A DNA stretch of 64,000 bases from Halostagnicola kamekurae (GTDB lineage Archaea > Halobacteriota > Halobacteria > Halobacteriales > Natrialbaceae). The stretch covers positions 248,001 through 312,000 of the forward strand of contig NZ_FOZS01000001.1 of assembly GCF_900116205.1 (NCBI RefSeq), written 5' to 3'. Positions 19,353-20,468 of this stretch are shown one piece after another (position 1 is the stretch's first letter; every line of letters starts with the position of its first letter). Position numbers and translations under genes: made by a program. The notes below the pieces were generated by a model. That model was given only the letters and a program-made list of their open reading frames with translations, was not told the origin of the DNA and made no database searches.

Positions 19353-19575
19353 CGCGATTGGTGGCCGACGGAGTCCAGCGGCTACGAATCCGCCGAAACA
19401 CGGCCGGTGGCGAGAACCCACCCCTCGAAGGATAGTTCGGGCCGATAAAACGGACGGGACACGGAGCGCTGTTCGGTTCGCATCGGTAGCGAGCGTGTCT
19501 CTCACAGCAACACGAGCAAGAAAATAGGATATCAGTATCGGACTCAGCTTCGGCGGTCTGCTGCTCGAGCACCCC

Positions 19576-19731
19576 TCAGAGGTCAGGTGAACCGACCTGA
19601 CAGCCACACGGCGAACAGACGTGCTCGGTCGGCCCGCGGCTCGTGATTCGAGTAACCGGCGTGTCACACCGCGGACACCGCGGTAGAAACGACGGCTCGC
19701 GCTCGTCTGGCTCCGAAGGTTGCTCGCTCAT
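19576..19731 (-). CDS. Small zinc-ribbon protein (51 aa)
   Basis: An ATG at 19731 opens a 51-residue frame reading MSEQPSEPDEREPSFLPRCP, then RCDTPVTRITSRGPTEHVCS and PCGCQVGSPDL. The cysteine pattern CPRC...CSPCGC is a compact zinc ribbon, and the acidic N-terminus fits a halophile. Many haloarchaeal genomes carry one-domain zinc proteins of this size, some involved in stress or swarming. It diverges from the candidate structured RNA that begins about 100 nt away. It is easily missed because of its length. Confidence 0.75.
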   Translation of the reverse strand: MSEQPSEPDEREPSFLPRCPRCDTPVTRITSRGPTEHVCSPCGCQVGSPDL

Positions 19732-19797
19732 AGACACCTCACGCGCAGCTTTTTGGGCGCGCCGGCCAGTTGATAGCGGTACGGCTGTCGTGCGAGA

Positions 19798-19807
19798 CGT
19801 TTATATC
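19798..19807 (+). promoter_or_regulatory. TATA box of candidate structured RNA
   Basis: CGTTTATATC is a good haloarchaeal TATA element. Initiation about 25-28 nt downstream would begin at the GGTTTC (19830-19835) that opens the first hairpin of the candidate RNA. Confidence 0.5.
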
Positions 19808-19829
19808 TCGGTAGAATCAACGCAAACAT

Positions 19830-19935
19830 GGTTTCAACCCTATCCGGGTTAGAAACCGCGCCTCGGATGTCTTCACCATCCGGGGCATTTCAGCGCATGC
19901 CCCTCGCGACTGTAGACGCGCGGTTTCTATCTTGT
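19830..19935 (+). ncRNA. Candidate structured non-coding RNA
   Basis: About 100 nt that are non-coding but rich in paired segments. (1) GGTTTCAACCC (19830-19840) pairs with GGGTTAGAAACC (19846-19857), 11 bp with one bulged A. (2) CGGATG/CATCCG (19864-19881). (3) GGGGCAT/ATGCCCC (19882-19903). (4) TAGAAACCGCGC (19850-19861) pairs perfectly with GCGCGGTTTCTA (19918-19929), 12 bp enclosing hairpins 2 and 3. Stems 1 and 4 share bases 19850-19857 and so exclude each other. A U-rich run follows (CTTGTTTGTTG). With a TATA box in the right place, this looks like a transcribed RNA. I cannot assign a known family. Confidence 0.5.
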
Positions 19936-20048
19936 TTGTTGTCGGGTAGTCACTTATACTATTGGGATTCGGGCGGGCAGAAACAGCTCAGGCTCTCATT
20001 CTGTATAACGTTCTTCACTCAAAAATACAGACTGTCTCTACCGAGTCG

Positions 20049-20468
20049 TTATTCTGCGTAAATTGTATTGCATGTGGGCTCAAAAAGTAATTCGCCTTCA
20101 TGTGTCTGATATATACTAACACCGCCAGCCGATCTTGTGGCTTTATCTTCGCAGTACGTCGTCGGCCAAGTATACTCTACTGAATTTCCATCGTCTATTG
20201 CCACGGAGAGTATTGTCGGATTTCCAGTAAATGGTTCAGTGACTTCTTCAGACTGTTCGCCTTCTAAGTTGAATTCCCGTTGGTAGAGTACGCTTTCCTT
20301 GTCATTTGTAACTGTTACAGAGAACGTATGCGCCAAATCTTCCCTGTTATAAATTCGCACTTCATGTGCGAGTTTTTTTGAAAATACGCCTGTACACCCA
20401 GCGAGCGCGATAGTCGAGGCTATTCCGCTTGCCATGAGGAGTTCTCGACGAGTCGTGGAGGGTTGCAT
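20049..20468 (-). CDS. Tat-exported lipoprotein, function unknown (low GC)
   Basis: A 139-residue protein with a Tat lipoprotein signal (TTRRELLMASG, then LAGC at about residues 22-25). The mature part has alternating hydrophobic strands (HTFSVTVTNDKE, ILSVAIDDG), suggesting a beta-sandwich, and two cysteines, CED and CNT, near the C-terminus. Codon use is much more AT-rich than in neighbouring housekeeping genes, which suggests transfer. A TATA-like GCTATTAAG on the minus strand near 20497-20507 fits the start. No function is recognised. Confidence 0.8.
   Translation of the reverse strand: MQPSTTRRELLMASGIASTIALAGCTGVFSKKLAHEVRIYNREDLAHTFSVTVTNDKESVLYQREFNLEGEQSEEVTEPFTGNPTILSVAIDDGNSVEYTWPTTYCEDKATRSAGGVSIYQTHEGELLFEPTCNTIYAE

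Follow-up and report, generated by a model that had tools for sequence, protein, structure and literature searches.

Bacterial plasmid and toxin-antitoxin systems use antisense control of a structured leader. In plasmid R1, where CopA/CopT works with tap-repA, as in ColIb-P9 with its Inc RNA and repY-repZ, an antisense RNA is set against a structured leader, a leader peptide provides the coupling and the loop sets the specificity. In the published picture, 72% of the protein-coding transcripts of Haloferax volcanii are leaderless, and translational control through structured leaders has been judged not typical of haloarchaea (PMC4983044). Archaeal riboswitches are almost unknown; the fluoride riboswitch is cited as the sole case established by experiment (PMC8241225).

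Here we analysed an element at 19798-19935 of a stretch of 64,000 nt from Halostagnicola kamekurae (the window). The original prediction had taken it for a plus-strand RNA with competing folds. We consider it probable that the element serves instead as the 5' leader on the mRNA of an operon of the minus strand and that a model of an antisense-controlled, coupled leader ORF holds as a whole. Functionally, antisense-controlled translation of such an ORF, in the manner of CopA/CopT-tap-repA or Sok/mok/hok, would be the best mechanism for it. Like the R1 system, the locus has a structured leader (on the predicted mRNA), a leader ORF coupled by its architecture (although absent from most distant loci), a predicted antisense RNA complementary to the leader and a loop sequence that may set specificity; it differs in being archaeal, in its approximately 15 chromosomal and plasmid copies, in fold and sequence, and in a main gene that encodes a zinc-ribbon or SWIM protein, not a replication initiator. 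As in the well-known hok/mok/Sok systems, a small protein follows an upstream ORF to which it is coupled (here by architecture), an antisense RNA (here predicted) overlaps the leader, and the families are multi-copy; however, the product here is a soluble zinc ribbon or SWIM protein with no hydrophobic toxin, and the leader fold is unrelated. Riboswitch leaders are similar in being covarying, structured and adjacent to a start codon, but here the loop is hypervariable, an antisense partner is probable and Rfam returned no match at E <= 5 (19700-20060) or at the gathering score over the window. Among open-licence papers we found no description of this leader family. The RNA, its archaeal setting, its multi-copy scale and its zinc products appear to be new, within a class of mechanism known in bacteria.

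The stems noted in the original prediction are real, fold better than shuffled sequence and covary in homologues. Its 11-bp hairpin at the 5' end (GGUUUCAACCC...GGGUU-A-GAAACC) is present with one bulge, and its perfect 12-bp long stem is contained in a 15-nt inverted repeat, 19850-19864 with 19915-19929, that is 93% complementary. Both use the strand 19850-19857, which bears out the competition for the same bases, and both of the hairpins said to be enclosed, 19864-19882 and 19882-19903, lie within the long stem. Compared with dinucleotide shuffles, the plus strand gave z = -3.5 (19826-19940) and -4.4 (19847-19935), and the minus strand gave z = -5.4, the best of both strands. Four helices recur across copies of the family. 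P0 (5' GGCUUC... with GAAGCC; 19830-19857) would form the 5' end of a predicted plus-strand antisense RNA and excludes P1. P1 joins the same middle strand to a 3' GGCUUCC; on the minus-strand mRNA its 5' strand would be 19915-19929 and its 3' strand, shared with P0, 19850-19864. P2 (CGGGUG-loop-CACCCG; 19864-19882) carries a loop at 19870-19876 that is hypervariable between copies, and P3 (GGGGCAU...AUGCCCC; 19882-19903) has a GAAA conserved on the minus strand.

A covariance search, which the original prediction had proposed as a check, found homologues with compensatory changes in both competing stems. In an alignment of 63 sequences (A1), P1, P2 and P3 together were 92.6% paired, P2 alone 100%, with both-side changes at 9 pairs against 2.7 in shuffles; for P0, P2 and P3 the figures were 92.1% and 7 pairs against 1.5. 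The class-wide alignment (A2), which takes in distant loci, had both-side changes at 20 of 21 pairs and a covariation score of 0.337 against 0.110, although it was fitted by the structure model with ten weak reverse-strand matches included and hence leans towards structure. The apical stem of P0 keeps its pairing despite 69 different sequences among 72 copies, and exchanging the halves of this stem among copies, a control on 70 divergent copies, lost 3.6 kcal/mol. In Halostagnicola the third letter of GGCUUC has become U with matching changes in three strands (GGUUUC/GAAACC/GGUUUC), as would be expected if one strand pairs with both of the others.

The two folds differ in the strand on which they are best formed. 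Of 99 copies, P0 folded better on the plus strand in 80 and on the minus strand in 13, while the P1-P2-P3 body, in 98 copies from Natrialbaceae, favoured minus 76 times and plus 22 times. Over the nine pairs of P1, non-Watson-Crick combinations were A:C on plus, equivalent to G.U on minus, 76 times and G:U on plus once, a count that may be inflated by transition bias at drifting positions, the shared strand being nearly constant. Wobble pairs across all three helices in the class favoured minus by 38 to 10, and exchanging 3' P1 strands between copies cost 1.8 kcal/mol when folded as the minus strand, compared with 0.9 as the plus strand. The body of 30 distant loci preferred minus in 24 and plus in 6; the preference of P0 is weak outside Natrialbaceae (18 plus, 12 minus in these 30). 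From these wobble patterns we infer, with the support of the folding counts, that P1 is best placed in a minus-strand mRNA and P0 in a plus-strand antisense RNA. The competing folds thus seem to belong to opposite strands, and their competition is unlikely to be a switch within a single molecule. The claim of a structured RNA with mutually exclusive stems survives, through its homologues and compensatory changes, and the claim of a switch within a single plus-strand RNA probably does not, since the wobble pairs split the strands.

The strand split also makes the TATA box of the original prediction, which is indeed present on the plus strand as TTTATATC at 19800-19807, more likely to be the promoter of an antisense RNA. 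It sits in a dyad, CGAGA-N8-TCTCG (19793-19810), whose arms change together (51 A/T and 40 G/C against 5 others in 96 copies, counted over related sequences in which the events are not independent). This TATA lies inside the leader ORF described below (ORF1), and the implied plus-strand 5' end falls opposite the ORF1 start codon; the predicted +1 is near the start-codon complement. Outside Natrialbaceae the antisense promoter is weak. We rejected the dyad as coding sequence (an RDINVP frame): stops interrupt the frame and the arms covary.

On the other side of the element, 19951-19966 reads CCAATAGTATAAGTGA on the minus strand, with a TATA at about 19955-19958. In an alignment of 78 copies this box never varies, and its distance to the P1 5' end is constant. 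At distant loci, 24 of which were compared, A/T-rich boxes are most frequent between -35 and -26 relative to the start of P1, where up to 54% of loci have at least 6/7 A+T against a mean of 10% over all windows, and in some of them CGAAAG or GGAAAC stands upstream; the BRE and TATA motifs of haloarchaea are CGAAA and TTWT (PMC4983044). On this support we infer a minus-strand promoter that would start the mRNA near 19929. The conserved TATA2 was also considered as an outward plus-strand promoter, on the grounds of dyad symmetry, and rejected: BRE/TATA boxes of distant loci point minus there. At distant loci, palindromes that are perfect or nearly so and different at each locus (L162, L172, L175, L176, L177, L181) occur upstream of the leader, near the TATA and the predicted start; they resemble private operators, for example CCTTCACAAGTACTTGTGAAGG in L177.

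From its predicted +1 the structured leader would run leftwards (19929 to 19830, minus strand) to a start codon, the complement of CAT at 19827-19829, which is held in a conserved CATGG. That codon opens ORF1, a 33-aa leader ORF (MFALILPRYKRLAR...; 19728-19829, minus strand), inside the interval that no protein frame had been thought to explain. The ORF1 stop overlaps, as ATGA, the ATG of a 51-aa zinc-ribbon protein (CPRC...PCGC; 19576-19731, minus strand), for which searches of Pfam and NCBIfam gave nothing above cut-off. An overlap of exactly 4 nt (ATGA or GTGA) was kept in 48 of 63 scorable copies, and in 10 of 16 within this genome; most of the remainder overlap by 8 or 11 nt. ORF1 itself has 21 different lengths in the scorable copies, and the relative frames of the two ORFs are distributed 55/20/3. 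This is the usual architecture of translational coupling, and coupling is predicted from it. The tiny zinc-ribbon protein of the original prediction is present, probably not as a mere divergent neighbour but as a member of the operon that the element would lead. Haloferax volcanii has small zinc-finger proteins (PMC6562870) that are likewise very small, one-domain and haloarchaeal, with no family-level match to the present ones; the abstract describing them mentions no structured leader.

A small CxxC...PCGC zinc-ribbon ORF stands just beyond the element on the minus strand in most copies: a simple CxxC scan was positive in 78 of 114, a number that takes in a few other CxxC ORFs, and inspection found more. 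A few copies have no recognisable zinc ribbon, so its presence is not required for the leader or antisense RNA to be retained. Six Halostagnicola loci (L008, L049, L050, L054, L084, L137) have the zinc ribbon fused behind a weak HalOD1-like domain.

With 19780-19960 as query, BLAST found four full copies at 90-100% identity and weaker ones in the same genome. Of 100 relatives, 36 had a match, and apart from one marginal case these belonged to the same family. Copies occur on chromosomes and on plasmids; the matches on haloarchaeal plasmids had no annotated feature beneath them. A pattern scan placed the element in Halostagnicola, Natrinema, Halopiger, Natrialba, Halovivax, Natronorubrum and others within Natrialbaceae, and a profile HMM run on the fetched loci gave 114 near-complete copies, or 93 once those more than 95% identical were removed. 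A covariance model (R1) found 16 places in the genome itself, 15 of them strong. Together with a broader model (R2) it found the leader in 199 of 391 genomes of the haloarchaeal class and 66 of 86 genera, at a threshold of E <= 1e-4 per genome with E-values that are rough, calibration having been shortened; in one distant genus a single genome can have as many as 16 places. Halobacterium plasmid pNRC200 held no copy at E <= 1e-4. Distant families keep the layout, the structure sitting directly before a minus-strand gene, and at most of the translated distant loci the same ATG opens an ORF of at least 48 codons, many of them Cys-rich (SWIM, zinc ribbon); a distant zinc ribbon at L178 bears the same signature. 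A leader ORF of its own is characteristic of Natrialbaceae, the first ORF of most distant loci being the zinc protein itself.

Leader and zinc ribbon together act like a cassette of about 420 bp (19570-19990 in the window; also L001-L004 and L110) with unrelated flanks within one genome. Similarity stops at the zinc-ribbon stop codon and about 25 nt past the minus-strand TATA, and a non-exhaustive look saw no terminal repeats. A pair of decayed partial copies (L005 1501-1555, L006 1501-1539) was also seen, one reduced to the zinc-ribbon side and the plus-strand TATA, with no start codon left, and one reduced to the 3' P1 strand and the minus-strand TATA. Two Halomontanus plasmid copies have a TFIIB-family gene (L112 6438-7349, L114 6438-7349) some 300 nt from the element, past its minus-promoter end. 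Haladaptatus plasmids (L219 and others) carry up to 27 SWIM-protein-like places each, some truncated and some with a leader. Distant leader-preceded SWIM-type proteins (L164, L177) resemble halovirus proteins (phrog_17897; ORF10 of Halorubrum virus BJ1), which suggests exchange between the leader module and viruses. The halovirus SWIM genes were rejected as leader carriers, lying inside operons without room for a leader, and the element DNA had no match in a phage collection.

The P2 loop, 6-7 nt long, is different in nearly every copy. Among the copies of six Halostagnicola genomes, none of 166 within-genome pairs had a loop in common, against 36 of 839 between-genome pairs; among pairs at least 95% similar elsewhere, sharing was 0/23 within and 16/77 between genomes (Fisher p = 0.02). 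A cruder test over 24 mixed genomes found loop identity no lower within than between genomes (1.2% vs 0.7%), so the signal of orthogonality belongs to the similarity-controlled Halostagnicola set, where it lends modest support to copy-specific recognition by the loop.

In the mechanism that we propose, the promoter at about 19955 would start an mRNA near 19929 whose leader folds P1 around P3 and P2 and ends at the ORF1 start codon, with translation of ORF1 coupled through ATGA to that of the small zinc-ribbon protein. Driven by the TATA at 19800, an antisense RNA would start opposite that codon, bear P0 at its 5' end and be complementary to the entire leader. Complementary P2 loops, and P3 loops, would probably nucleate pairing of the two RNAs by kissing, and the pairing would block translation of ORF1 and hence of the coupled zinc protein. 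Variation of the P2 loop would keep the approximately 15 paralogous pairs of one genome from cross-reacting. Extended to the whole class, the proposal becomes one of archaeal sense/antisense pairs, some 15 of them in this genome, built on a common scaffold but with private P2 loops. They would serve as mutually insulated switches, and each would control one coupled leader ORF together with its zinc microprotein; in that full form we offer it only tentatively.

Several of the same observations would fit a cis-acting leader of the riboswitch kind, in which the P1-P2-P3 junction binds a metal ion, a metabolite or the zinc protein, P1 trades with a P0-like hairpin at the AUG to switch translation, and the plus-strand promoter is incidental. 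The leader position, the three-helix junction with its conserved GAAA in P3, the competition of P1 with a hairpin abutting the start codon and the mostly zinc-protein targets all agree with it. We nevertheless think it unlikely, as variability is greatest in a loop of 6-7 nt that is not the same from one paralogue to the next in a genome, the wobble pairs of P0 are on the strand opposite to that expected of an mRNA hairpin, and about 15 copies per genome would have one ligand in common. A type I toxin-antitoxin module, with the zinc protein as toxin and the plus-strand RNA as antitoxin, would account for the mok/hok/Sok-like layout, the multiple copies on chromosome and plasmids and the decayed partial copies; it is made very unlikely by the nature of the products, which are soluble zinc proteins, charged, of various unrelated types and with Cys pairs but no hydrophobic segment, and by the survival of copies without the protein.

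Least probable is a stand-alone small RNA, the fallback of the original prediction, taken here as transcribed from the plus strand and acting in trans through its variable P2 loop; the zinc-ribbon gene would then be no more than a divergent neighbour. Its good plus-strand TATA with a covarying dyad, the selection of P0 on plus and the lack of a close plus-strand gene downstream speak for it; yet P1 favours the minus strand, the minus-strand start codon and ATGA coupling are conserved, and distant loci place the structure directly before a minus-strand gene. The absence of a close downstream gene on the plus strand, correctly noted at the outset, ceases to be a puzzle because the main RNA would be the leader of the minus-strand operon. 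A plus-strand leader of a downstream gene was rejected, such ORFs being inconsistent and often absent.

The preferred reading, a minus-strand leader under antisense control, bears on how haloarchaeal genes are thought to be translated. A conserved, multi-copy structured leader that occurs in roughly every second haloarchaeal genome sampled and in three quarters of the genera, unannotated wherever checked, conflicts with the leaderless picture of haloarchaeal mRNAs. If the model is true, archaea would gain a class of genes with leader peptides and antisense control, and the paralogues would offer ready-made sets for tests of RNA-RNA specificity within one cell.
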